Assembly (NCBI GenBank): GCA_027920525.1 | Contig: CP115858.1 | Location: 2,914,001 to 2,978,000, forward strand | Direction: 5' to 3' | From: Chryseobacterium daecheongense | GTDB lineage: Bacteria > Bacteroidota > Bacteroidia > Flavobacteriales > Weeksellaceae | Length of the DNA: 64,000 nt | Part shown: one piece after another, positions 3,617 through 19,412 of the stretch | Numbering within the stretch: position 1 is the stretch's first letter | Layout: each line of letters starts with the position of its first letter | Position numbers and translations under genes: made by a program | The notes under the pieces: generated by a model | What the model was told of the DNA's origin: nothing | Databases searched by the model: none | What the model saw: only the letters and a program-made list of their open reading frames with translations

Positions 3617-4426
3617 TCATTCTTCCAATTTAGCATTTTGACCTGCATAATTCTCTAATATTCCTTCAGAAACATCTTTTAAAGCTTTTTCATTTTTAGG
3701 ATGTTTCCCATAACTTGTAAAAAATTCTACATGATTTTTACTTTTATCATACCATACTTTACCTAAGCTATTATCAACATTAAGTGTATCAGGTCTATTA
3801 ATCCGCTTAAAATATCTAAAATCATGTGGATTCATTGCAACCACTTTCAATTGAGGACCAAGATCACTGCTATCTGTGGCAATATATCTATCTCCATCCC
3901 AATACATATAATTCTTTTCCACATCAAGCTTGCCTCCAGACATAATCCCTAAAGAATGTATCATTCCATCATCGTATTTCTTATTATTTGAAAAAATAAC
4001 CCCTCCTGTAACCAAAAAAATAACAAACGCCATTTCTACAAGCCCAAGCCCATTTTTCTTAATAAAATCTGGCATTGCAAGAATTGGCTTATTAATAATA
4101 TTAATTACGATTCTAGAGACCGTTTGATTAATTGTGTATTCTATTGTTTTCCAGTCTAAACAATAATTTTTGAAATTATCATATCCTAAATAATTGCTTA
4201 AATCATCAAGGATTACAGGCTTAATATTATAATCTTTCTCACTTTCAACAATAGTTTTATAATAAGTCTCAAAGGTTTTATAGCTCAGGTTGACTTTAAA
4301 ATCATCTAACAAACTTCTTTCTAGTGATTTTAGAATCCCACTAGGAGATTTCTCAGTTGTCTCATTTGATGCCTTTTCAAATACATCTTCCAGTAGCTTT
4401 TTTTTCTGGGATAAAAATTTTGACAT
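3617..4426 (-). CDS. Single-pass membrane protein, member of the palindrome regulon
   Basis: I do not recognise a named family. The start is placed at the ATG at 4426 (MSKFLSQKKKLL), not at an upstream ATG at 4567, because the palindrome promoter lies at 4447-4490. The resulting 269-residue protein has a helical N-terminal domain (about 1-100, with SYKTFETYYKTI and LSNYLGYDNFKNYC, a pattern seen in many unnamed Bacteroidota proteins). It then has one membrane helix near 130-150 (GLVEMAFVIFLVTGGVIF) and a polar C-terminal domain. The promoter matches those of the response regulator at 6730 and the operon at 7535, so I infer co-expression with them. Function unknown. Confidence 0.75.
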   Translation of the reverse strand: MSKFLSQKKKLLEDVFEKASNETTEKSPSGILKSLERSLLDDFKVNLSYKTFETYYKTIVESEKDYNIKPVILDDLSNYLGYDNFKNYCLDWKTIEYTINQTVSRIVINIINKPILAMPDFIKKNGLGLVEMAFVIFLVTGGVIFSNNKKYDDGMIHSLGIMSGGKLDVEKNYMYWDGDRYIATDSSDLGPQLKVVAMNPHDFRYFKRINRPDTLNVDNSLGKVWYDKSKNHVEFFTSYGKHPKNEKALKDVSEGILENYAGQNAKLEE

Positions 4427-4446: not shown

Positions 4447-4490
4447 GAAAATTAAAGGGTTTATCAATAAAATCATTACGGTTTCCCGTA
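4447..4490 (-). promoter_or_regulatory. Palindrome promoter P1 (TACGGGAAACCGTA - 22 nt - TAATTTTC)
   Basis: On the minus strand the palindrome TACGGGAAACCGTA (4490 to 4477) is followed by exactly 22 nt and then TAATTTTC (4454 to 4447), one base from the Bacteroidota -7 consensus TAnnTTTG. The start codon at 4426 is 20 nt further on. No TTG lies at the normal -33 position, which suggests activator dependence. The same arrangement recurs at 6621-6664 and 7469-7512. Confidence 0.75.
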
Positions 4491-4795
4491 CAAAAGTTTC
4501 CAAGAACTTTCCAAAAACTTTCTAACACACACTTTCTCCATTGTTGGATATTTGCTCCAGAAATCAATGACAGACAAAACGTTACAATAACAAATTTACA
4601 AAACTGATTTCTAAATCACCAGATAAAACGGAAGAAAACTCCGGGTTGGGAAGCAGATGTTTCTCTTCCGTTTTTGAAGGTTCTACTTCCCAAAAAATTT
4701 AAGAAGCGCTTCAAATTTTTTAACCGTGTAAAACTATCTGCGATCTGTTTCGCAGGGAAGAACACGAATGCTTTAACATTAAATTTTTTGACAAA
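4491..4795 (+). other. Structured leader/intergenic region upstream of the micropeptide gene
   Basis: This gap holds four inverted repeats and no gene I can support. They are: AAAACGGAAGA (4625-4635) with TCTTCCGTTTT (4664-4674), 11 perfect pairs; TTGGGAAG (4646-4653) with CTTCCCAA (4686-4693), interleaved with the first; GAAGCGCTTC (4703-4712); and CTGCGA (4738-4743) with TCGCAG (4750-4755). The first two cannot form as simple nested hairpins, so they are either alternative structures or a pseudoknot. This suggests a structured 5' leader or a small RNA. Confidence 0.5.
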
Positions 4796-4984
4796 ATGAT
4801 CGAGTTTATATTAATGCTATTAGGCTTAGCATTCCCAAATAATAACGCAAATACAGCAACAAGTAATGATAACAATTATCCAATTGTACAACCCGTAACA
4901 CAAGGAGGACCTACAGATCCTATTGGAGGTGTAGGAGGAGATGGTGATACTAGCGGAGGAAGCGGACAAAAACCACCTCTTTAA
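4796..4984 (+). CDS. Gly-rich 62-residue micropeptide
   Basis: A very short gene encoding a hydrophobic N-terminus (MIEFILMLLGLAFPN), an Asn/Thr-rich middle and a Gly/Asp/Pro-rich tail (GGVGGDGDTSGGSGQKPPL). The hydrophobic part could be a short signal or membrane anchor. Reality is supported by the unusual but coherent composition, the perfect terminator 14 nt after the stop (4998-5020) and the structured leader before it. It sits just upstream of a sensor kinase with a periplasmic TPR domain, so a peptide signal or partner of that kinase is an attractive but unproven idea. No family recognised. Confidence 0.6.
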   Translation: MIEFILMLLGLAFPNNNANTATSNDNNYPIVQPVTQGGPTDPIGGVGGDGDTSGGSGQKPPL

Positions 4985-4997
4985 TTAATTTATATCC

Positions 4998-5026
4998 AAG
5001 AGCTGTTTCTTACAGCTCTTTTTTTT
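4998..5026 (+). terminator. Terminator between micropeptide and sensor kinase genes
   Basis: AAGAGCTGT (4998-5006) pairs perfectly with ACAGCTCTT (5012-5020) around a five-base loop, followed by a T-tract. The kinase gene starts only 24 nt after the tract and I see no perfect -7 box in that gap. Kinase expression may therefore depend on readthrough. Confidence 0.8.
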
Positions 5027-5049
5027 ATTTTAGTATCAAATACTAGATT

Positions 5050-6717
5050 TTGAAATATTTATATTTTTTATGTTCCCTTTGCTTGCTTTATTCTTGTAAG
5101 AAAAATTCAGAAGTTAATTTTCCTGAAAAAAATTATAATAGTCATTTTTACAATTTAGCTAAAAGTTCAGACGATGAAAAAACAGCTTTTAAATACTTTA
5201 ACTATGCTAAAGATGACTACTTGAATAAAAAAGATTCGCTAATGGCTGGAAAATCTCTTATTAATATGGCAATCATATTGTCAAATCAAGGAGATAACTA
5301 TGGTAGTTTACAAACTTCAATAGAAGCGAATAAAATATTAAAGAATTCAACAAGTAAAGAAACTTTTGCCTCAAATTACAATTGTATGGCTATTGTTTCT
5401 GAAAATTTAAGACAATATGACAAGTCTATAGAATATTACCAAAAGGCCATAGAATATACATCTGATACAATTATTAGACTAGCATACTTAAATAATATTG
5501 GAAACTCATATTTGTTAAACAAAAATTATCTAAAAGCTTTAGAATACTTTAAACAAGTTCTTAAGAATAAAAAATCAATAATTAATAAAGTTGACTATGC
5601 GAGAGTTATAAATAATTATGCTAAGGCAAGTTATTTAATAAATCCCAATTACAACCCCATCCCAATTTATGAAAAATCACTGCAGATAAGAATAAAAGAA
5701 AAAGACTTGCAGGGGCAAAATTATGTTTTAGCCAGCTTTACAGATTTCTATCAGAATAAAGATAATCAAAAAGCATTATCTTATGCATTACAGAGATATT
5801 CTGTAGCCAAAGCGATGAAAAATCCAGATGATCAATTGGAAACGCTACAAAAACTGATAGTTTTAGATCCTACAAATTATCTAAAGTATTTTAATCAATT
5901 TCAATCCATAAATGACAGTACACAAATTGCGAGAAGCTCTTCTAAATATCAATTTGCACTGATCCGCTATGAAACGGAAGAAAAAAATGCAGAAAACATG
6001 AGATTAAAAGCGGATAAGGCACAAAAGGATAGCTTATTTTTTAAACAATCAATCATTCTTTTAATTGTCATACTAGCTTTAGTCATTACTATTGTCTTAT
6101 ACCGAAAAAGGCAAATAAGGTTAAAACAAGAAAACGAATTAAGAATAAAAGAAAACCAACTCAAGCTCTCCAAAAAAGTACACGATGTAGTAGCAAACGG
6201 TATCTATCAGGTAATGACCAAGATTGAAAACCAGGAAAGCTTTAGCAAAGATGAGGCGCTTGATGAATTGGAATTTGTTTATGAAAAATCAAGGGATATC
6301 TCCTATGAAAAGACCGATCTTACTAATAACGAGAAGAATTTCAATGAAAAAATATCGGAACTTATAGGCTCCTTTAATAATGATACTGTAAAAACCTATC
6401 TTGCCGGAAACGATGCAAGCATATGGAAGGGATTACAAGAATCAACCCTGACAGAAGTATACCAGATTGTACGTGAATTACTCGTAAATATGAAAAAACA
6501 TAGCCGGGCAGACCGGGTGGTTTTCAGATTTGAAAGGGAAAATGAATTTATCAAAATTTACTATACCGATAATGGAATTGGCATTCCCGGAGATATTATA
6601 TATAAAAATGGGCTGTCGTCTACGGTTTCCCGTATAGAAACAATCAAAGGAGAAATTATTTTTGACACCAAAACCGAAAGAGGATTGAAGATCAACATTT
6701 CATTTCCTGTTTCCTAA
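5050..6717 (+). CDS. TPR-containing lipoprotein sensor histidine kinase
   Basis: A 555-residue kinase. It starts at a TTG codon at 5050; the only nearby ATG (5070) is out of frame, and the TTG start gives a lipoprotein signal with lipobox LYSC (Cys16). Residues about 30-310 form TPR-like helical repeats (for example YDKSIEYYQKAIEY and YLKALEYFKQVL) facing the periplasm. One membrane helix follows (about 333-350), then a short coiled coil, the phospho-acceptor region KKVHDVVANG with His378, and an ATPase domain with an N box (ELLVNMKKHS) and G1 box (DNGIGIP). This is the NarX/HisKA_3-like class that pairs with LuxR-type regulators. The partner regulator starts 12 nt downstream. Promoter P2 lies inside the 3' end of this gene. 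Confidence 0.85.
   Translation: MKYLYFLCSLCLLYSCKKNSEVNFPEKNYNSHFYNLAKSSDDEKTAFKYFNYAKDDYLNKKDSLMAGKSLINMAIILSNQGDNYGSLQTSIEANKILKNSTSKETFASNYNCMAIVSENLRQYDKSIEYYQKAIEYTSDTIIRLAYLNNIGNSYLLNKNYLKALEYFKQVLKNKKSIINKVDYARVINNYAKASYLINPNYNPIPIYEKSLQIRIKEKDLQGQNYVLASFTDFYQNKDNQKALSYALQRYSVAKAMKNPDDQLETLQKLIVLDPTNYLKYFNQFQSINDSTQIARSSSKYQFALIRYETEEKNAENMRLKADKAQKDSLFFKQSIILLIVILALVITIVLYRKRQIRLKQENELRIKENQLKLSKKVHDVVANGIYQVMTKIENQESFSKDEALDELEFVYEKSRDISYEKTDLTNNEKNFNEKISELIGSFNNDTVKTYLAGNDASIWKGLQESTLTEVYQIVRELLVNMKKHSRADRVVFRFERENEFIKIYYTDNGIGIPGDIIYKNGLSSTVSRIETIKGEIIFDTKTERGLKINISFPVS
6621..6664 (+). promoter_or_regulatory. Palindrome promoter P2 inside the kinase gene (TACGGTTTCCCGTA - 22 nt - TATTTTTG)
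   Basis: TACGGTTTCCCGTA at 6621-6634 is the same 14-mer as at 4477-4490. It is followed by exactly 22 nt and then TATTTTTG (6657-6664), a perfect TAnnTTTG box. It lies within codons of the kinase ATPase domain, 66 nt upstream of the response regulator start at 6730. No TTG is found at -33. It would let the regulator amplify its own expression independently of the kinase. Confidence 0.75.
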
Positions 6718-6729
6718 AAACTAAAAAGA

Positions 6730-7395
6730 ATGTTCAAAAAAATTTTAATCGCTGAAGACCATGAAAGTATTAATCTTTCGGTACAAAAAACACTGGAAGA
6801 CCTCAACATTCCGAATGTTGATTATGTATATTACTGTGATGATGCATTGGCAAAGGTTCATAAATCCATTCGGGAAAATGAACCTTACGACCTGTTGATC
6901 ACTGATTTGTATTATGAAGAAGATCACCGGCAGCAAAACATTAAAGACGGAAGAGATCTTATCCAACAAATAAAGGCACTTCAGCCTTCCCTTAAAGTCA
7001 TTGTCTTTTCCGCCGAACACAAATCCGGAATCATCGATTCTCTTTTCAAAGACTATCATATCAATGGATATGTTCGTAAAGCAAGAAACGATTCCAAAGA
7101 GCTGAAAAAATCAATTGCATCTGTTTACATTAATGAAAATTATCTGTCTCTTGATTTAAAGCAGGAAATAAAAAAACTAAATAGTTATGAGTTTTCTGCG
7201 TATGAAATTACACTCGTTTCCCTTCTTTCAAAAGGAGTTCTGCAAAAAAACATTCCTGATCTCCTACAGGAAAAAAACATAAAACCTAACAGCTTAAGCA
7301 GTGTTGAAAAAAAATTGAACAGCTTAAAAGAAGATCTTGAGGTAACCAGCAACGAACAACTGGTTGCATTTTGCAAAGACATCGGAATTATTTAA
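6730..7395 (+). CDS. DNA-binding response regulator paired with the TPR kinase
   Basis: A 221-residue response regulator. The receiver domain (about 1-125) has the acidic pocket (ILIAEDHES), the phospho-acceptor Asp59 in LLITDLYY, the conserved Ser (VIVFSAEH) and a Lys in GYVRKARN. The C-terminal region (about 150-221) is predicted helical and plausibly a LuxR/NarL-like helix-turn-helix (ITLVSLLSKGVLQKNIPDLL), though diverged. It follows the kinase by 12 nt, and the internal promoter P2 suggests autoregulation. It is the natural candidate for the protein binding TACGGnnnnCCGTA; this is inferred from position. A terminator follows at 7427-7446. Confidence 0.85.
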   Translation: MFKKILIAEDHESINLSVQKTLEDLNIPNVDYVYYCDDALAKVHKSIRENEPYDLLITDLYYEEDHRQQNIKDGRDLIQQIKALQPSLKVIVFSAEHKSGIIDSLFKDYHINGYVRKARNDSKELKKSIASVYINENYLSLDLKQEIKKLNSYEFSAYEITLVSLLSKGVLQKNIPDLLQEKNIKPNSLSSVEKKLNSLKEDLEVTSNEQLVAFCKDIGII

Positions 7396-7426
7396 AAAAC
7401 AAATTTTCCATCCCGATTTAATATAG

Positions 7427-7453
7427 CCTTTCATTTTTTTGAAAGGTTTTTTT
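7427..7453 (+). terminator. Terminator after the response regulator
   Basis: CCTTTCA (7427-7433) pairs with TGAAAGG (7440-7446), followed by a T-tract. It separates the two-component operon from the nine-gene operon that starts at P3. Confidence 0.8.
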
Positions 7454-7467
7454 GTTTTTTGCCCGTT

Positions 7468-7512
7468 TTACGGATTCCCGTAAGGATTGGTTTTGAAAGG
7501 GTTATACTTTTG
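7468..7512 (+). promoter_or_regulatory. Palindrome promoter P3 of the nine-gene operon (TTACGGATTCCCGTAA - TACTTTTG)
   Basis: The palindrome TTACGG-ATTC-CCGTAA spans 7468-7483. Its 14-base core ends at 7482, and 22 nt later comes TACTTTTG (7505-7512), a perfect TAnnTTTG box. The first start codon is at 7535. As at P1 and P2, there is no TTG at -33 and the palindrome occupies that area, as expected for an activator that contacts polymerase. Confidence 0.8.
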
Positions 7513-7534: not shown

Positions 7535-7873
7535 ATGGGAAAATTTGTAATTACTCAGAGAATAAACAATGAGTATCAATTCAATCTTAAGGCTGGAAAC
7601 GGAGAAATTATCCTGACCAGCGAAGGCTATGTTCAGAAAGCCTCCTGTCATAAAGGAATAGAGTCTGTAAGAATCAATTCAAAGGACGATTCCAGATACG
7701 ACAGAAGAGAGGCTGTAAATGGTAAAGATTATTTCGTCCTGAAAGCCAGAAATGGGGAGATCATAGGAAAAAGCCAGCTCTACAGCTCAAAAACAGCAAT
7801 GGAAAATGGAATTCACTCTGTAAAATCCAACGCTCCAACCGCAGAAATTATTGATGAAACCCTTAAAAACTAA
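7535..7873 (+). CDS. DUF1508 (YegP-like) protein, two repeats
   Basis: A 112-residue protein made of two tandem DUF1508 units. The first has YQFNLKAGNGEIILTSEGY and ends KGIESVRINS; the second has YFVLKARNGEIIGKSQLY and ends NGIHSVKSNA. DUF1508 proteins are small beta-rich cytoplasmic proteins whose biochemical role is not established to my knowledge. It is the first gene of the P3 operon, with only five bases between its stop and the next gene, so co-translation is likely. Confidence 0.85.
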   Translation: MGKFVITQRINNEYQFNLKAGNGEIILTSEGYVQKASCHKGIESVRINSKDDSRYDRREAVNGKDYFVLKARNGEIIGKSQLYSSKTAMENGIHSVKSNAPTAEIIDETLKN

Positions 7874-7878
7874 AAGCA

Positions 7879-8949
7879 ATGGATCTTAAAATAAAACTAG
7901 AGCAGCTGCATCAGAAAGTAGTAGGATTGAAGGACCAGATCAATACGGAAGAAGCGACCAAAAATGCTTTTGTAATGCCATTCATACAGATTTTAGGTTA
8001 TGATATATTTAATCCTACAGAAGTGGTTCCTGAGCATATTTGTGATATCGGAACCAAAAAAGGAGAAAAAGTAGACTATGTGATAAGACACAACGACAAT
8101 CCTATTTTTATCATTGAATGTAAGCATTGGAAAGAAAGTGCAGATGCGCACAATTCACAGCTCCACAGATACTATCATGTTTCAAAGACCCGGTTTGGAG
8201 TGCTAACCAATGGGATTGTATATAATTTTTACACCGATCTGGAGAAGCCTAATATTATGGATGAAAAGCCTTTTTTTACCATCAACATTGAAGATCTCAA
8301 AGACAGTTCGATTAAAATTCTCGAAAGCTTTACCAAAAAAGACTACAATCTGGAAAGCATTTTAGATTCTGCTGAAGCATTAAAGTATATCAAAGCGATC
8401 CGGAGAGAATTTGAGAAAGAAATTGAAAACCCCTCTGATGAGTTGGTTAGGCTGTTAGTCAATCGCTTTTTCGAAAAACCTTTAACCGCGAATAGAATGA
8501 TTTCTTTCAAAGAGTACACAAAGAAAGCTTTGACAACATCAATCAATGAATCCATAAGTTTCAGGCTCAAATCTGCATTGAGCATTAACGAACAGATTGA
8601 AAAAAGGGATGAAGCTGTAAAAACACCACAATCTATTGATGAAAACAATGATTCTAAAATTGTAACAACCGAAGAAGAACTGGAAGGGTTTCAAATTGTA
8701 AAGGCTATCCTGCGAGAAAAAGTCGAATCATCAAGAATTGCTTATCGGGATACTCTATCCTATTTTGGAATTTTATTCGATGACAACAATAGGAAACCTC
8801 TTTGCAGACTACATTTTAATACCTCAAATAAATACCTGGAGCTATTTCATAACGGGAAAGATTCCGGAGAAAAGATTTTATTAGGTACCCTCGATGAAAT
8901 CTACAATTTCAGAAATGAACTTCACAAAACACTTGAAAATTATAACTGA
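7879..8949 (+). CDS. HsdR-N-like PD-(D/E)XK nuclease domain protein
   Basis: A 356-residue protein whose N-terminal half resembles the nuclease domain found at the N-terminus of type I restriction R subunits (HSDR_N_2 type). Visible elements are an early acidic helix (Glu24-Glu25, TEEATKNAFVMPFIQILGYD), then Asp66 in KVDYVIR and Glu80-x-Lys82 in IIECKHWK, which fit the D...ExK catalytic set. The segment RFGVLTNGIVYNFYTDLE is also typical. There is no helicase domain, so it is not a complete restriction subunit. The C-terminal third (about 260-356) resembles a small DNA-cleavage-associated domain but I cannot name it. It shares a TGATG overlap with the next gene. Confidence 0.8.
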   Translation: MDLKIKLEQLHQKVVGLKDQINTEEATKNAFVMPFIQILGYDIFNPTEVVPEHICDIGTKKGEKVDYVIRHNDNPIFIIECKHWKESADAHNSQLHRYYHVSKTRFGVLTNGIVYNFYTDLEKPNIMDEKPFFTINIEDLKDSSIKILESFTKKDYNLESILDSAEALKYIKAIRREFEKEIENPSDELVRLLVNRFFEKPLTANRMISFKEYTKKALTTSINESISFRLKSALSINEQIEKRDEAVKTPQSIDENNDSKIVTTEEELEGFQIVKAILREKVESSRIAYRDTLSYFGILFDDNNRKPLCRLHFNTSNKYLELFHNGKDSGEKILLGTLDEIYNFRNELHKTLENYN

Positions 8950-9458
8950 TGAAAAAGCTGTTTTTACTTATTATAATCCCAATCATCATTTTTCTTTTAC
9001 ATTCTTGTTTTAAGGCAAACGATAATATTGGGCACGATGGAAGATGTACGGGGTCTGCCTATTGTACAGCTTGTTCAAATTGTTCCGGTTGTGGACATTG
9101 TGCAGGAGGTGGTGGAACCTGTGGTGTTTGTAAAGGAGAATCCTCCAGAAAAAAATCTTCTTCAAAGAAAGACAAACATAAAAGACCAGGAGATAATGAT
9201 TCTTATTCTTCAAAAAGAGGTAAATCTACCAAAGCTCCTTCAGTTTTTGTGAATGAAATCAATATCAATTCTGGCAGATACAGAACAGGAACTGCAATTA
9301 CCTACATATATGAAAAACCTTCTATCCAATCCAAAATAATAGAAACTATTCCTAAAAACGAAAAGCTGATTCAGCTTTCAAAACAGGATTCTTGGTATAA
9401 AGTGAAAGTACAGAAATCAGGAAAAATAGGATATGTATATTATAAAAATGTGAAATAA
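8949..9458 (+). CDS. Cys-rich SH3-domain lipoprotein
   Basis: A 169-residue predicted lipoprotein with lipobox LHSC (Cys20). Residues about 33-65 are a striking cluster of eight Cys in CxxC-like spacing mixed with Gly (CTACSNCSGCGHC, then CGVCKG), which could bind metal or form disulfides. A Ser/Lys-rich linker follows. The C-terminal part (about 95-169) looks like a bacterial SH3 domain (ITYIYEKPSIQSKIIETI ... WYKVKV ... GYVYYKNV). Its start overlaps the preceding stop by one base. An envelope-anchored binding role is inferred. Confidence 0.75.
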   Translation: MKKLFLLIIIPIIIFLLHSCFKANDNIGHDGRCTGSAYCTACSNCSGCGHCAGGGGTCGVCKGESSRKKSSSKKDKHKRPGDNDSYSSKRGKSTKAPSVFVNEININSGRYRTGTAITYIYEKPSIQSKIIETIPKNEKLIQLSKQDSWYKVKVQKSGKIGYVYYKNVK

Positions 9459-9474
9459 CTAAAAACAAATATCT

Positions 9475-10119
9475 ATGAATTTAAAACAATTTTTAAACGA
9501 AGAACAGGATCCTAAAGCTGTTGAAAAGCTCCTTGAAAAAATTAACAGCCTTCTTACTTCACAAGAGTTTGTTGAATATATTGCCGTTCAAAAAAAGCCG
9601 GCTTTTAATTTATCTCCGGACTGTATTGCTCTTACCAATAGGAGAGTTATTTTTTGTAGACCCAAAAATTTCGGTTTATCAATGGATTTTCAGGATTACA
9701 GTTGGGTAGATGTTGCAGACTGTCATATTAAAGAAGGTATTCTTGGGGCTACTTTCATTATGAAAACTGTAGGAAACCTAATCAACATGATGGACTATTT
9801 ACCAAAAGCACAAGCAAGAAAACTCTATCAATACGCTCAGGAAATTGAAGAACAAATGAGAGGTGTGAGAAGAGAAAAAGATTTAGAAACAAGAAGAGCT
9901 TCTGCTGGAGGAGGAGTAACTGTAAATAACACGACACCTATTATTGCCCAGCCACATCAATTCCAACAACAACAACAACAACAACAACAACAACCTTTGT
10001 TGATAGAAAATGAAGATCCTTTTGCCATTTTGCAAAAATTAAAAGGCTTAGTACAAACCGGAATTATTTCCCCGGAAGAGTTTGAAGAAAAAAAGAATGA
10101 AATCTTATCAAGAGTTTAG
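9475..10119 (+). CDS. PH-like and SHOCT domain protein with a polyglutamine linker
   Basis: A 214-residue protein. Residues about 30-125 look like a bacterial PH domain of the YokE type (CIALTNRRVIFCRPK, WVDVADCHIKEG). After a Gly/Val-rich stretch and ten consecutive Gln, the C-terminus is a SHOCT helix pair (DPFAILQKLKGLVQTGIISP, EEFEEKKNEIL). SHOCT domains are short oligomerisation or anchoring helices often joined to membrane or stress proteins. The Gln run is encoded by a pure CAA repeat. Six bases separate it from the TM2 gene. Confidence 0.8.
   Translation: MNLKQFLNEEQDPKAVEKLLEKINSLLTSQEFVEYIAVQKKPAFNLSPDCIALTNRRVIFCRPKNFGLSMDFQDYSWVDVADCHIKEGILGATFIMKTVGNLINMMDYLPKAQARKLYQYAQEIEEQMRGVRREKDLETRRASAGGGVTVNNTTPIIAQPHQFQQQQQQQQQQPLLIENEDPFAILQKLKGLVQTGIISPEEFEEKKNEILSRV
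9964..9993 (+). repeat. (CAA)10 trinucleotide repeat
   Basis: Ten perfect in-frame CAA codons encode the Gln run between the PH-like and SHOCT parts of the surrounding gene. Slippage here would change linker length without breaking the frame. Confidence 0.95.
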
Positions 10120-10124
10120 AAATT

Positions 10125-10340
10125 ATGAAATCAAAATTTACCACAGCCATGCTCGCTCTCTTTTTAGGGGGGTTGGGCATTCATAGATTTTACTTAGGCC
10201 AAAATACATTAGGAATATTCTATCTTTTATTCTGCTGGACTTTTATCCCGGCACTCATTGCCTTTATTGACTTCATCGTTTTCATTTTCATGTCTGAAAA
10301 TAGTTTCAATTACAAGTACAACCTTACTACAGGATTCTAA
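10125..10340 (+). CDS. TM2 domain membrane protein
   Basis: A 71-residue protein that is almost entirely a TM2 domain: LALFLGGLGIHRFYLGQ is the classic first helix with its GGxGxHRFYLG motif, and a second helix (TFIPALIAFIDFIVFIFM) follows. TM2 proteins are small inner-membrane proteins of unclear role, often encoded next to SHOCT or PH-like proteins, as here. Confidence 0.9.
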   Translation: MKSKFTTAMLALFLGGLGIHRFYLGQNTLGIFYLLFCWTFIPALIAFIDFIVFIFMSENSFNYKYNLTTGF

Positions 10341-10351
10341 AAACTAAAAAA

Positions 10352-10774
10352 ATGAAACTATTTCTCACCTTCTGTGCAATATGTTGTTTTGTAGGTGTTT
10401 TTAGACTCCCTATTGAATATTACACCTTTCTCCGGGTTTTAGTCTCTGTTGGAGCACTGATTATCATCTATAGTTTTTTGAACAATAAGCAATACAACTG
10501 GGGAGCAATATTCATAGTAATACTGATCATTTTTAATCCGGTTTTTCCCATTTATTTATATAGAAAAAGTATATGGATCCCTATTGATACCATTACAGGA
10601 ATCCTTTTTCTCCTTATAACGTTTGCTGAAAAACTGGATTTTAAAAAGGAAGAAGAAACTACCGAAGAAATTCCAGAACATAATAGACAAGTAAGATCTC
10701 CTTCACGAGATATCATTATTAATCCTAAAAAGACCAAAGAAGAACCAACCAATGGAAAACAATCAAATAACTGA
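10352..10774 (+). CDS. Small multi-pass membrane protein (DUF6804-like)
   Basis: A 140-residue protein with four predicted membrane helices in the first 90 residues (LFLTFCAICCFVGVF; LRVLVSVGALIIIYSFL; WGAIFIVILIIFNPVFPIYL; ITGILFLLITFAE) and a charged cytoplasmic tail. The arrangement with NPVFPIYLYRKSIWIPID resembles DUF6804-type proteins; no function is known. Its last 23 bases overlap the start of the next gene, indicating tight coupling. Confidence 0.7.
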   Translation: MKLFLTFCAICCFVGVFRLPIEYYTFLRVLVSVGALIIIYSFLNNKQYNWGAIFIVILIIFNPVFPIYLYRKSIWIPIDTITGILFLLITFAEKLDFKKEEETTEEIPEHNRQVRSPSRDIIINPKKTKEEPTNGKQSNN

Positions 10775-11159
10775 AAATCTCAAAGCTCACTTCTTAAGGC
10801 TTTATCAAATGGCTATTTGTGATGATGATTTCAGTGCTCTTGAGCTGAAAATGCTTTACAAATGTGCTGAAGAAAGAGGAATATCTTCAAAAAATCTGGA
10901 TGATATTCTGCTGAATCCTATCAATTTTAAATCTCTGGTCCCACAAACCATTGAGGAGAAAGTTGATTACCTATATGATCTCACTGTGATGATATGGGCA
11001 GACGGCGTCGTCTCTCCAAACGAGTATTCCGCTATGGAAAAGTATGTACTTATGTTCGGTTTTCTGGAAGATAATGTAACAGATATTGTTGATTACCTTA
11101 TCGAAGCAGTAAAAATCGGAAAGAATAAAAGTGACATTTTATACGAATTAAAAAACTAA
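10752..11159 (+). CDS. TerB-like protein
   Basis: A 135-residue all-helical protein with the repeated acidic pattern of TerB-like domains: MAICDDDFSALELKMLYKCAEERGI in the first half and MIWADGVVSPNEYSAMEKYVLMFGF in the second. In TerB the acidic loops bind metal, and the family links tellurite/stress (Ter) modules to membranes and vWA proteins. Here a vWA-like lipoprotein ends the same operon. The assignment is by motif pattern, not overall identity. Confidence 0.7.
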   Translation: MENNQITENLKAHFLRLYQMAICDDDFSALELKMLYKCAEERGISSKNLDDILLNPINFKSLVPQTIEEKVDYLYDLTVMIWADGVVSPNEYSAMEKYVLMFGFLEDNVTDIVDYLIEAVKIGKNKSDILYELKN

Positions 11160-11165
11160 AACACT

Positions 11166-12509
11166 ATGGACACCATCAGCATAAAAAATTTATTCAAACT
11201 GAAATCAGTTCCAATTGAAACACCCAAACAGGAAGCTCCCAAAGACACCGACTCTAAAGTAGAAACAGAATCTCCTGAAGAAAGCAGAAAAAGAACTTAT
11301 CACGAAGCCGGTTACAGGGACAGCTCCAGAACAAATGGAAATCATTCCACACTATCAATCTGCCTTGATGCCGTATACTCAAAGTTTCAAAATGAGGAAA
11401 AAGAGATGGTTGAAAAACAGCAAAAGCTTAAGGAGTCTTATATCAATGAGCAAAAAAACAGAGAAACTGAGATCAAAGCTCTGACTGTTTCCCAGGAAAC
11501 TAAAGAAGAACAGCTAAAAAATAAAAACAAGGAGGTCGAAAATCATCAAAACACAATTGAGGCCCTAAAAGCTGAAATACTGGATTTACCTAGAAACCCC
11601 GAAAAACACAATGTAAAAGCAACAAAAGGAGCTTCCACTAAATTCTGGATTGGCGCATTCCTTCTCATTCCTATAAGCCTTTACTTGATCACATTCTATA
11701 TTTCAACTTCTTACTCCGCTTTCTTTAAAAGTTTTGATGCTAAAAGTACGGTGATACAAAGTGTTTTGGACGCACAAGCATTCAGTAAAGCATGGAACGC
11801 AGGAGCTATTGAAGGAGCTTTTGTCACTTTAATTCCATTTGTATTTCTTGGACTAGGCTTTCTCATTCACATGTTCAGCGAGAATAAAACAACAGCGAAT
11901 TATATTAAACTTGGACTATTATTCGTAGTTACATTTGTTTTCGACTCCATTTTAGCATATGAGATTGAATCAAAACTGTATGAATTAAATAAAACATTTA
12001 ATTCCCCTGATTTTAATCTTAAAATCGCTTTTACTAAAATACAGTTTTGGGGAATTATTTTCGCAGGATTCATTGTCTACATTATCTGGGGGTTGGTATT
12101 TGATTTTGTTATGAAGGAGCATAAAGAAAAAGATAAAATCAAAAATGAACAAGAAATCAGACAAAAAAACGTGCTTTTCCTTTTAGAAAAAATCAATGTC
12201 CTGAAAAAAGAAATTGAAGAAATTCTGGGAAATATAGGTACCACAAAAGAATTAATCATTAAAACCCGTGGGAGAATTGAAGAACTTCAGAATATTATTG
12301 ATGGAGTCATCATTCCAACCAAAGATTACAAGTTATACGCCTCAGAGTATGTCCAGGGTTGGATTACTTTTATTGGAGAAAAGATAGCTGTTTCCAAAAC
12401 AGAGAAACAAACGATGATCGAAAGCTGTATTGAGACCTATAATATCAATCTGGAAACCGTAGGAGCTAATTCTGATAATCAAAATTTAGTATACCTGTCT
12501 TCTTTATAA
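11166..12509 (+). CDS. Coiled-coil membrane protein, four predicted helices
   Basis: I do not recognise a family. The 447-residue protein has a charged N-terminal segment, a long coiled coil (about 75-145, rich in Glu/Lys/Gln), and four predicted membrane helices (about 158-178, 217-240, 246-263 and 294-315). A second coiled coil (about 318-370) and a soluble tail follow. This looks like a scaffold spanning the inner membrane with cytoplasmic coiled-coil arms. It sits six bases after the TerB-like gene and ten before the lipoprotein gene. Confidence 0.75.
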   Translation: MDTISIKNLFKLKSVPIETPKQEAPKDTDSKVETESPEESRKRTYHEAGYRDSSRTNGNHSTLSICLDAVYSKFQNEEKEMVEKQQKLKESYINEQKNRETEIKALTVSQETKEEQLKNKNKEVENHQNTIEALKAEILDLPRNPEKHNVKATKGASTKFWIGAFLLIPISLYLITFYISTSYSAFFKSFDAKSTVIQSVLDAQAFSKAWNAGAIEGAFVTLIPFVFLGLGFLIHMFSENKTTANYIKLGLLFVVTFVFDSILAYEIESKLYELNKTFNSPDFNLKIAFTKIQFWGIIFAGFIVYIIWGLVFDFVMKEHKEKDKIKNEQEIRQKNVLFLLEKINVLKKEIEEILGNIGTTKELIIKTRGRIEELQNIIDGVIIPTKDYKLYASEYVQGWITFIGEKIAVSKTEKQTMIESCIETYNINLETVGANSDNQNLVYLSSL

Positions 12510-12519
12510 ATCGAAAGCC

Positions 12520-13401
12520 ATGAAAAAAATAATATACTTATTAATAATCATCTCTTTTGTTTCTTGTTGCAAAACTGAAAGTGGTTCTTCCGATGAAAGA
12601 AAAGATAGTATTCAAACTGATCTGAATAACTTAAATGTTAGCATTTTAATTGATTTATCGGACCGAATCGATCCCAAAACCAACCCAAACCCATCAATGG
12701 AATATGCTCAGAGAGATGTGGAATATATCAAAACCATTGAAAAAGGATTTCTCAACCATATTAAATCCAAAAGAATAATCACTTATGATGATCAGATGCA
12801 GATCTTCTTTAATCCTGAACCTTCCGATCCAAAAATGAACGAACTGACCAAAGAACTAAAGGTATCTTTTGATAAAAATACAAGCAAAGATTATTTTAGT
12901 TCTGTCGAAAAAAAATATTCTGAATTGCCTTCTAATATTTATCAATCAGCCATTAAAGATGATAAATACGTTGGTTCTGACATTTGGGAGTTCTTTAGAA
13001 ATAAAGTAAAGGATTATTGTATCAAAGATGATCGAAGAAATATTCTTTTTATTCTGACTGACGGCTACATGTATCATGAAGATTCCAAGTTTTCACAAGA
13101 AAAGAAGACCTCTTATCTGACATCAAAATTAATAAAATCATTTCATCTTACCACAACAGATTATAAAGCAGAAATTGAGAAAAATCATTTGGGCTTTGTA
13201 AAGGCCAATGATAATCTGAATAATCTGGAAGTAATTGTTTTGGGAATTAACCCTGAAAAAGGCAATCCATTCGAAGAAGCAGTCATCAAAGAATACTGGG
13301 AAAACTGGTTCAAAGAAATGAAAGTCAAAAATTACCAGATTAAATCAGCAGACCTTCCTTCTAATCTGGAACCGATTATTTTAAAAGCTATTAAAGGATA
13401 A
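12520..13401 (+). CDS. vWA-like lipoprotein
   Basis: A 293-residue predicted lipoprotein with lipobox FVSC (about Cys16). The core looks like a von Willebrand A fold: a first strand with a partial metal site (VSILIDLSDRID, DxSxx in place of the full DxSxS), a second strand ending in ILFILTDGYMYHED, and a later strand LEVIVLGINP. Such domains mediate protein-protein contacts, often through a bound metal ion. It is the last gene of the P3 operon and is followed by a strong terminator. Loss of the second Ser suggests altered metal binding. Confidence 0.7.
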   Translation: MKKIIYLLIIISFVSCCKTESGSSDERKDSIQTDLNNLNVSILIDLSDRIDPKTNPNPSMEYAQRDVEYIKTIEKGFLNHIKSKRIITYDDQMQIFFNPEPSDPKMNELTKELKVSFDKNTSKDYFSSVEKKYSELPSNIYQSAIKDDKYVGSDIWEFFRNKVKDYCIKDDRRNILFILTDGYMYHEDSKFSQEKKTSYLTSKLIKSFHLTTTDYKAEIEKNHLGFVKANDNLNNLEVIVLGINPEKGNPFEEAVIKEYWENWFKEMKVKNYQIKSADLPSNLEPIILKAIKG

Positions 13402-17437: not shown

Positions 17438-19412
17438 ATACGATAACAAACGTAAAAAAACGTTAAGGTGGGGCTACCTCTTCGCAGTGGTAGCTTTGTG
17501 CGTGTTTGTACTTTTTTTAACAAGAATCGTTATTCTCCAAAACACTAATGTTCAGGAAATTAAAGACGACTACATCAATAAAAACTATCGTGAAGCCACT
17601 TTAAAGGCTGCCAGAGGGAATTTATTTGCATCAGATGGCTCTATTCTCGCAACTACCGTTATGCGTTATGATATCTATCTTGATTTCAAAACAATAAAGG
17701 ATACGGTTTACAGTAACAATATCGGTGCATTAACGGATTCACTAAGCAAGATGTTTGGAAAACCAAGAAGTGAATTCAGACAGAAATTTGACGAACAGAA
17801 AAGAAAGAAAAATCAATACTATACACTTGCCAGAGGCTTGGATTTTGATGAATACGACAGGATCAGAAACTTCCCGATCTTTAAGAAAGGAAAGAATAAA
17901 GGTGGGTTTATCGTAGACAGAAATTATAAAAGAGAACTCGCAACTTCTGAAATTGGTGCAGGTACCATCGGAATGGATAACAGTGAGTACAAATCCGGTC
18001 TGGAAGGAGCTTTTTCAAAATACCTGACAGGCACCGACGGGAAAAGATTGGAACAAAGAATCAATTCTTCGCAGTGGAAGCCTATTGATTTCTGGAAGGT
18101 TCAGGAACCCGTAGATGGAGAAGATGTATATACGACCTTAGACCTTCGAATCCAGGACATTGCACACTCAGCTCTTGAAAAGCAGCTCGTAAATTTTGAA
18201 GCAAAACACGGTACTGTAATTGTCATGGAAGTAGGAACCGGAAAGGTTCGTGCCATGGTAAACCTTCGAAGAACAGATTCAGGAGAGTACGAAGATGCTT
18301 ATAATTATGCTTTAAAAGATAATATCGAACCCGGATCAACTTTCAAAACCATTTCACTTTTGGCAGCAATGGATGACGGATTCATCGATGATAACACAAC
18401 GGTAAATGTAGGAAACGGAGTATGGACCTATGCGAAGCAAAGAATTTCAGATGGCCACGGAGGAGGAACATACGACATCAGTGACGTTCTTGCGAAATCC
18501 AGCAACGTAGGAACTGCCAAACTGATTACGAAATACTATGCCGATAAGCCACAGATATTCCTTGATCACCTTAAGCGCTGGAAATTATTTGATAAAATGG
18601 ATATCGAACTTCCAGGCATTACAAAACCTAAGATCGTAACTCCACAAAATAAAAGATGGAACGCAGCAACACTTGCCTCGATATCTTTTGGATATTCTTC
18701 GAACATTAACTTATTACAATTAGCAACTTTCTACAACGGGGTTGCTAATAATGGTAAAATGCTTAAGCCTTTATTCATCGATAAGATCATGAAGGATGGT
18801 AAAATAATGTATCAGGCCAAGCCGGAGGTAATGGTCAGCAAAATGGCTTCTGAGAAAGCAATTAAAATGATGACCAATGCTTTGACAAAAGCCGTGGAAA
18901 AAGGAACCGGACGAAGTATTTTCACTCCGAATCTGAAAATGGCAGGAAAAACAGGGACCGCCAGATTTGAGTACTGGCTTCCGGGCCCGATGAAATACCG
19001 TGCCTCTTTTGCAGGATTCTATCCAGCTGATAATCCGAAGTATACCTGTTATGTAATGATCAGTGAGCCGAATACGGCAAAAGGATTTTACGGAGCGACT
19101 GTTTCAGCCCCGGTTTTTAAAGAAATTGCAGGAAAAACATTCCTGAAGACGCCTCAGAATATTGAAAAAGAAATGCTTGTTGACAAAAAGGTAAACCTCA
19201 ATAAAATGGTGGAGCCTAATGTGAAAGTAGCAGTAAATGATAAACAAATGCCTAACGTAGTAGGATTAATAGGTAAGAATGTGATTCCACAACTGGAAAA
19301 CCTTGGATACCGTGTAGACTACAAAGGAGTAGGAAGAATAAAAGAACAGTTTCCTTTGGAGGGAACTACGATCAGTAAGAACCAGAGAATTTATTTATCT
19401 CTTCAGAATTAA
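17421..19412 (+). CDS. ftsI: Septal peptidoglycan transpeptidase FtsI (PBP3) with PASTA domain
   Basis: A 663-residue class B penicillin-binding protein. It has a membrane anchor (about 18-38), the dimerisation domain (RGNLFASDGSILA), and a transpeptidase domain with Ser306 in GSTFKT, the KSSNVG (SxN) motif and GKTGTA. The C-terminal 65 residues (MPNVVGLIGKNVIPQLENLG) form a PASTA domain, which binds peptidoglycan stems. It crosslinks septal wall with FtsW. Overlap with ftsL indicates translational coupling. Confidence 0.95.
   Translation: MQKQNEYDNKRKKTLRWGYLFAVVALCVFVLFLTRIVILQNTNVQEIKDDYINKNYREATLKAARGNLFASDGSILATTVMRYDIYLDFKTIKDTVYSNNIGALTDSLSKMFGKPRSEFRQKFDEQKRKKNQYYTLARGLDFDEYDRIRNFPIFKKGKNKGGFIVDRNYKRELATSEIGAGTIGMDNSEYKSGLEGAFSKYLTGTDGKRLEQRINSSQWKPIDFWKVQEPVDGEDVYTTLDLRIQDIAHSALEKQLVNFEAKHGTVIVMEVGTGKVRAMVNLRRTDSGEYEDAYNYALKDNIEPGSTFKTISLLAAMDDGFIDDNTTVNVGNGVWTYAKQRISDGHGGGTYDISDVLAKSSNVGTAKLITKYYADKPQIFLDHLKRWKLFDKMDIELPGITKPKIVTPQNKRWNAATLASISFGYSSNINLLQLATFYNGVANNGKMLKPLFIDKIMKDGKIMYQAKPEVMVSKMASEKAIKMMTNALTKAVEKGTGRSIFTPNLKMAGKTGTARFEYWLPGPMKYRASFAGFYPADNPKYTCYVMISEPNTAKGFYGATVSAPVFKEIAGKTFLKTPQNIEKEMLVDKKVNLNKMVEPNVKVAVNDKQMPNVVGLIGKNVIPQLENLGYRVDYKGVGRIKEQFPLEGTTISKNQRIYLSLQN

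Follow-up and report, generated by a model that had tools for sequence, protein, structure and literature searches.

A putative palindromic operator 22 nucleotides from the -7 box and a candidate two-component system over dispersed, defence-rich genes in Chryseobacterium

A histidine kinase gene, a response regulator gene and three closely similar promoter sites lie together in a 64,000-nucleotide (nt) stretch of the Chryseobacterium daecheongense genome (contig CP115858.1, positions 2,914,001 to 2,978,000 of the forward strand), here called the window. A divergent gene lies on one side of the pair and an operon on the other, and each promoter site joins a palindrome, a putative operator, to a -7 box of the flavobacterial type. 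The features are as follows, with positions counted from the first letter of the window.

3617..4426, minus strand: gene for a 269-amino-acid protein with a hydrophobic stretch, a predicted target; homologue in 74/78 loci, median identity 40%
4447..4454, minus strand: -7 box TAATTTTC, 22 nt from operator TACGGGAAACCGTA
4477..4490, minus strand: palindromic operator TACGGGAAACCGTA, preceding the divergent membrane-protein gene
5050..6717, plus strand: histidine kinase, predicted sensor, with a lipobox, TPR repeats, one transmembrane (TM) segment, the H-box KKVHD and HATPase_c
6621..6634, plus strand: operator TACGGTTTCCCGTA, within the kinase coding sequence and ahead of the regulator gene
6657..6664, plus strand: -7 box TATTTTTG, 22 nt from operator TACGGTTTCCCGTA, also within the kinase coding sequence
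6730..7395, plus strand: response regulator, predicted to bind the palindrome, with a receiver domain and a divergent LuxR-type helix-turn-helix (HTH)
7469..7482, plus strand: operator TACGGATTCCCGTA, preceding the operon 3' of the regulator
7505..7512, plus strand: -7 box TACTTTTG, 22 nt from operator TACGGATTCCCGTA
7535..13401, plus strand: predicted target operon of eight open reading frames (ORFs) of at least 80 amino acids, each of the eight genes present in 23 to 48 of 78 loci

All three sites share the pattern TACGG-N4-CCGTA-22-TANNTTT, and they lie at 4490-4447 on the minus strand and at 6621-6664 and 7469-7512 on the plus strand, exactly where a preliminary description of this DNA had placed them. 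That description had seen no other copy in the window, and the exact TACGGNNNNCCGTA indeed occurs only at these three sites, with one-mismatch copies at 17702 and 59306. Two details need amending: the -7 box of the minus-strand site ends in C, not G, and the site at 6621 is not intergenic but sits inside the kinase gene (5050-6717). Chance, as modelled by a first-order Markov chain on the window's own sequence, would give 0.0067 palindromes and 0.00004 palindrome-22-TANNTTT sites, compared with three of each seen. The lack of a TTG at -33, also remarked on earlier, holds by eye for gaps of 17-19 nt to the box in all three sites, that at 7469-7512 having a TTG 15 nt from its box. Further sites behave alike, with TTG at 17-19 nt in 3/78, compared with 5.5 expected when spacers are shuffled.

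The site within the kinase gene was examined codon by codon. In the C-terminal part of the kinase gene, 212 codons were scored for codon identity at the same amino acid against the expectation from codon usage, across 78 loci and with no correction for relatedness; a kinase homologue is present in 78/78. The palindrome codons (6619, 6622, 6625, 6628 and 6631) rank 9, 2, 5, 1 and 7 of 212 for excess codon identity and the -7 box codons (6655, 6658 and 6661) rank 6, 4 and 14, together filling eight of the top 14 places; of the intervening spacer codons, the best placed ranks 15 and the worst 158. Changes in the two central palindrome codons alter the protein (V-S, G-T, E-N, D-S) and the half-sites stay constant, which argues for selection on the DNA rather than on the protein. 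This comparison points to a site that is under selection as DNA inside the kinase gene.

Conservation of the three sites was followed in 79 regulator loci from named genomes. The site ahead of the regulator is exact in 56, with one mismatch in 17, two in two and three in one, and is thus kept within one mismatch, 22 nt from a TANNTTTG box, in 73/79 loci. The site 3' of the regulator is exact in 71/79 loci and has one mismatch in one; the divergent site is exact in 10/79 and has one mismatch in two. Spacing is close to invariant, with 148 of the 150 strict pairs in these loci at 22 nt and two at 10 nt, and no strict pair at any other gap from 8 to 37 nt. An operator ahead of the regulator gene and under selection, as found here, is what is expected of an autoregulated two-component system.

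In several regulator loci an additional exact site lies some 890 nt upstream of the regulator gene. G087, G103, G109, G035, G026 and G014 have a second regulator, 42-50% identical to the first, in tandem with it, and the additional sites may reflect this arrangement.

Sites also occur far from the regulator. Across the whole genome there are seven exact palindromes, of which four lie outside the window, compared with two copies of a reversed control pattern when no box is required. A TANNTTT box can be read by eye 21-24 nt from six of these palindromes; the three of the six that lie outside the window precede a metallo-beta-lactamase-fold gene (gap 22), a NACHT gene (21) and a bestrophin-like gene (24), the first two families taken from Pfam-type matches and the bestrophin-like label given by eye. 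With two mismatches allowed and the gap fixed at 22, the genome has 12 matches and the reversed control five. Among the matches listed for other genomes of Chryseobacterium, where gaps of 19-25 nt were allowed and the non-regulator site G056:C79 was left out, the gap of the 80 dispersed sites is 21 in nine, 22 in 61, 23 in nine and 24 in one. The strict motif is found in 141/148 Chryseobacterium genomes; the reversed control (box required, no mismatch) is found in 0/148 and is likewise absent from the family sample. Random copies in number lacking a box at 22 nt, looked for as evidence against a regulon, did not appear. The word 'local', under which the regulon had first been described, has to be given up: seven palindromes are scattered over this genome, dispersed sites elsewhere precede diverse and often defence-like genes, and the system spans two families.

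The motif follows the regulator across relatives. A regulator homologue was scored at E < 1e-30, and the tests treat genomes as independent, ignoring relatedness. Among 147 genomes from other genera of the same family, the motif occurs in 66/77 with the regulator vs 4/70 without it (p = 9e-25, counts transcribed by hand from two tables), and inside a single genus, g26, in 13/14 vs 3/22. Among 207 genomes from other families of the order the figures are 25/28 vs 0/179, with the reversed control occurring twice; all 28 regulator-bearing genomes there belong to one family, f3, which we take to be Flavobacteriaceae. A hand check of the 25 motif-bearing f3 genomes placed a site no more than 1 kb from a listed regulator gene in 19, mostly downstream. 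Twenty loci were picked from other genera and from a motif-negative Chryseobacterium, G060; in 13 of them a copy with at most two mismatches precedes the regulator with a gap of exactly 22 nt, and when copies on either side of the regulator are counted the number is 19, one of these having a gap of 21 nt. Regulators as little as 40% identical in protein sequence still have a near-palindrome ahead of them, the 40% case being Salegentibacter, which keeps TGTGGAAAACCGTA-22-TACTTTTG. A different operator in genomes that have the regulator and lack the exact motif was considered and rejected for the seven fetched (six of the eleven such family genomes, and G060), all of which keep a near copy.

The receiver domain of the regulator matches Response_reg (2.6e-10) in a Pfam scan, and D10, D59 and K117 are invariant in 20 homologues, as expected of a receiver with a phospho-acceptor Asp. 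In the same scan neither a LuxR-type HTH model nor a WYL domain was matched, and DUF5482 fell below the cut-off; the missing LuxR-type match indicates that the DNA-binding domain is divergent. An AlphaFold model (pLDDT 88.5) shows a C-terminal four-helix bundle of the LuxR/GerE HTH type, and its nearest full-length folds include RcsB (also in its DNA-bound form), VraR, spr1814 and EvgA, so that by predicted structure the protein appears closest to NarL/RcsB proteins. Its sequence is identical to that of Chryseobacterium sp. LAM-KRS1. For the kinase, the Pfam scan gave HATPase_c (5.9e-6) and TPR repeats, and the lipobox, TM segment and H-box KKVHD were recognised by eye; no HisKA model matched in that scan.

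In Flavobacterium psychrophilum the TAnnTTTG box occupies -12 to -5 (PMC9723704). With the box at that position, mapped as it was in another species, a gap of 22 nt means that the palindrome spans -48 to -35 and is centred on -41.5. A centre at -41.5 is the classical position of a class II activator. Aligned as a logo, the 78 distinct sites whose gap is 22 nt read TTACGG-DWWN-CCGTAA-N21-TANNTTTG, with no conserved TTG near -33, and an operator centred near -41.5 at fixed spacing is what class II activation calls for. Both the geometry and the absent -33 TTG argue for activation.

We favour, with a probability of roughly 0.7, a reading in which a NarL/RcsB-type pair binds the palindrome and activates its own gene, the flanking genes and dispersed, largely acquired anti-phage genes. 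A two-component system of this type would consist of the kinase encoded at 5050 and the regulator encoded at 6730; the phosphorylated regulator, as a dimer, would bind the palindrome, of which TTACGG-DWWN-CCGTAA is the fuller form. From -41.5 it would touch polymerase and compensate for the absent -33 element. It would activate its own gene from the promoter within the kinase gene, and with it the operon that follows, the divergent membrane gene and the dispersed genes elsewhere. In Chryseobacterium the latter would be largely acquired anti-phage or conflict genes provided with the same operator-plus-promoter cassette; the set would also take in some genes of DNA maintenance (Tex, RmuC). Binding of the palindrome by the regulator at 6730, and its control of its own gene, had been proposed at the outset, and as far as genome comparison goes both are strongly supported by the near-constant site ahead of the regulator, the constrained codons and the co-occurrence; activation is inferred from the geometry.

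The dispersed targets were characterised through the proteins they encode. A target was taken as the longest ORF of at least 60 amino acids with its ATG within 350 nt of the box, which gave a protein for 74 of the 80 dispersed sites listed and none for the other six. These 74 proteins fall into 58 clusters, from which 30 representatives were drawn at random. PADLOC models matched 16 of the 30 at 1e-5 and 13 below 1e-20; a control set of 104 genes, located in 20 Chryseobacterium stretches at round coordinates chosen by the analyst, gave at most 22 and at most six, these being upper bounds because the control tally counts families and not proteins (p = 0.0009 and p = 3e-6, respectively). On this comparison the targets are enriched in known or candidate defence families. 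Counted as families on the alignments, there were 278 for the 74 target proteins vs 21 for the 104 controls.

The PADLOC families among the 30 representatives are ThsB, QatA, GajA, SngA, a PbeA/type IV-like helicase, type II methyltransferases, a Fic-like family and several candidate systems, the GajA-like target being cut by a contig end. Pfam added type III methyltransferases, PLD-like proteins and a SMODS nucleotidyltransferase, as well as Tex in three members, RmuC in two and TerB-C in two. Of ten f3 targets, picked by hand from 17 and so not a random sample, four had a match; the ten include LmuA, a PtuA/AriA-like ATPase, an SbcD-like protein (weak) and a type I restriction subunit. The systems to which the families named here belong include Thoeris, Qat, Gabija, Shango, Lamassu and CBASS. 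Judged from its sites and predicted products, the regulon is dispersed in two families, with targets in Chryseobacterium that are rich in defence genes.

Several observations weigh against the activation of a defence regulon by this pair. In 3/79 loci there is no box, and hence no site ahead of the regulator by the rule used, and the seventh palindrome of the genome, before an ABC-3C gene (its product matches CTD1, with a Cap4 nuclease match below the cut-off), has no clear box at 21-24 nt by eye. The exact motif occurs without a regulator match in five genomes (G031, G162, G207, G291 and G302), the incomplete genome G039 has four sites and a weak regulator match, and the regulator occurs without the exact motif in eleven family genomes and three order genomes. 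On the side of the targets, 14 of the 30 sampled have no PADLOC match, none of the ten window proteins scanned, the operon at 7535-13401 included, has a PADLOC match below 1e-5, and Tex and RmuC speak for DNA maintenance rather than immunity.

The six genomes with a weak or absent regulator match that retain motif copies would suit a different, unlinked DNA-binding protein that reads the palindrome, with the two-component genes as mere targets, and the co-occurrence is also compatible with another binder inherited together with the regulator. Such a third protein would need to have been gained and lost with the regulator, even within g26, where the motif tracks it, and the site flanks the regulator in nearly all genus loci, and in 19/20 fetched loci, and lies within 1 kb of it in 19/25 motif-bearing f3 genomes; we consider it improbable. 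Only slightly better are the prospects of a regulator that binds the palindrome and represses, blocking polymerase at -35 until a signal releases it. Cover of -48 to -35 could suit repression too, and autoregulation is common among repressors, but promoters with no conserved -33 TTG look too weak to need repressing, a gap held within one or two bases suits polymerase contact better than a steric block, and the nearest folds include RcsB and EvgA, which are activators. As for chance palindromes or copies of a mobile repeat, the reversed control does occur twice in the genome when no box is asked for, and five times vs 12 with two mismatches at gap 22. An expectation of 0.00004 per window, controls that are empty in genus and family once a box and no mismatch are required, and spacers unrelated in sequence, with palindrome and box alone kept, leave this next to no credibility, and in our view the tests of spacing and of codons have already refuted it.

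A general envelope or DNA-damage stress response, with defence genes as one part of it, is a more serious contender, still on the doubtful side, and it overlaps with the reading we prefer. Tex, RmuC and TerB-C are among the targets, as are, by eye, a TerD-like protein, SH3-like lipoproteins and the bestrophin-like gene; the predicted sensor kinase has TPR repeats and a lipobox; and several f3 targets are, again by eye, small exported proteins. Against this, the share of strong PADLOC matches is several-fold above that in control genes, and the targets are mostly unrelated to each other (58 clusters among 74), as accessory defence genes would be. A wider form of the preferred reading, somewhat short of an even chance in our estimate, is a Flavobacteriales chromosomal alarm. 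Here one two-component system and a plug-in cassette, TTACGG-N4-CCGTAA with a TANNTTTG box at 22 nt, could have been adopted by unrelated, horizontally acquired immune systems (Thoeris, Qat, Gabija, Shango, CBASS-like, restriction-modification, Lamassu), an arsenal that might be switched on jointly by an envelope signal of attack.

The system resembles NarL/FixJ (RcsB-like) systems in its receiver and, by structure, LuxR-type HTH, in a partner kinase with a dimerisation His box (seen by eye) and HATPase, and in its inverted-repeat operator; it departs from them in that the HTH is divergent and one operator lies within the kinase gene. With class II activators such as CRP, which acts at -41.5, it shares a palindrome centred at -41.5, fixed spacing and no conserved upstream element, but the promoter here is the flavobacterial TANNTTTG type and the polymerase contact is predicted. 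BrxR/CapW WYL regulators are likewise transcription factors that act on inverted repeats and control phage-defence genes (PMC9122601 for BrxR). BrxR itself works by repression, its WYL domain probably contains a ligand site, and defence systems neighbour 48% of its homologues (PMC9122601), whereas the regulator here, with no WYL match, is predicted to be a chromosomal two-component regulator acting in trans on scattered defence genes. RAYM_RS09735/09740 of Riemerella is a two-component system from a related bacterium, but was named PhoP/PhoR by its authors, and is set beside the present regulator by its description (PMC5399024).

In the open-licence literature we found no earlier report of the motif, its variants or a two-component system over defence genes, nor of an operator TTACGG-N4-CCGTAA 22 nt from a Bacteroidota -7 box. 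The sole match to a 14-mer, in a poultry gut paper, was taken to be an unrelated oligonucleotide. How bacteria coordinate many costly defence systems is described as poorly known (PMC9122601). If the preferred reading is true, a cassette with a readable operator would predict new defence genes as whatever lies downstream, a single trans-acting system would offer a route to the attack signal and a test of a joint defence programme, and Bacteroidota promoters would gain a precise operator rule.

The predicted targets in the window are less familiar. The 269-amino-acid protein has no Pfam, NCBIfam or PADLOC match. The operon at 7535-13401 encodes DUF1508, an HSDR_N-like protein, an SH3 lipoprotein, a bPH/SHOCT protein, a TM protein, a TerB-like protein, a coiled-coil TM protein and a vWA-like lipoprotein (the labels vWA, lipoprotein and TM given by eye), and is a candidate for a new locus of defence or stress response. 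A 61-amino-acid ORF with a glycine-rich end occupies 4798-4983 on the plus strand, in the interval that separates the divergent gene from the kinase gene; it has no tblastn match in the 78 loci.

Some dispersed sites have unusual layouts. The palindrome before the bestrophin-like gene has a 24-nt gap in two species (L007 in the window genome, at 3089109, and L178 in G109), and the RmuC genes L175 and L179 (G087 and G109) have a site at a 23-nt gap, with further 23-nt sites listed for G014, G051 and G103. At L200/L201 (G100:C11:1341594-1341667) one palindrome stands between a pair of divergent promoters whose boxes are both 22 nt away from it, and at G077:C120:1885-1957 and G137:C1:754861-754933 a single palindrome between divergent promoters has its boxes at 22 and 21 nt.

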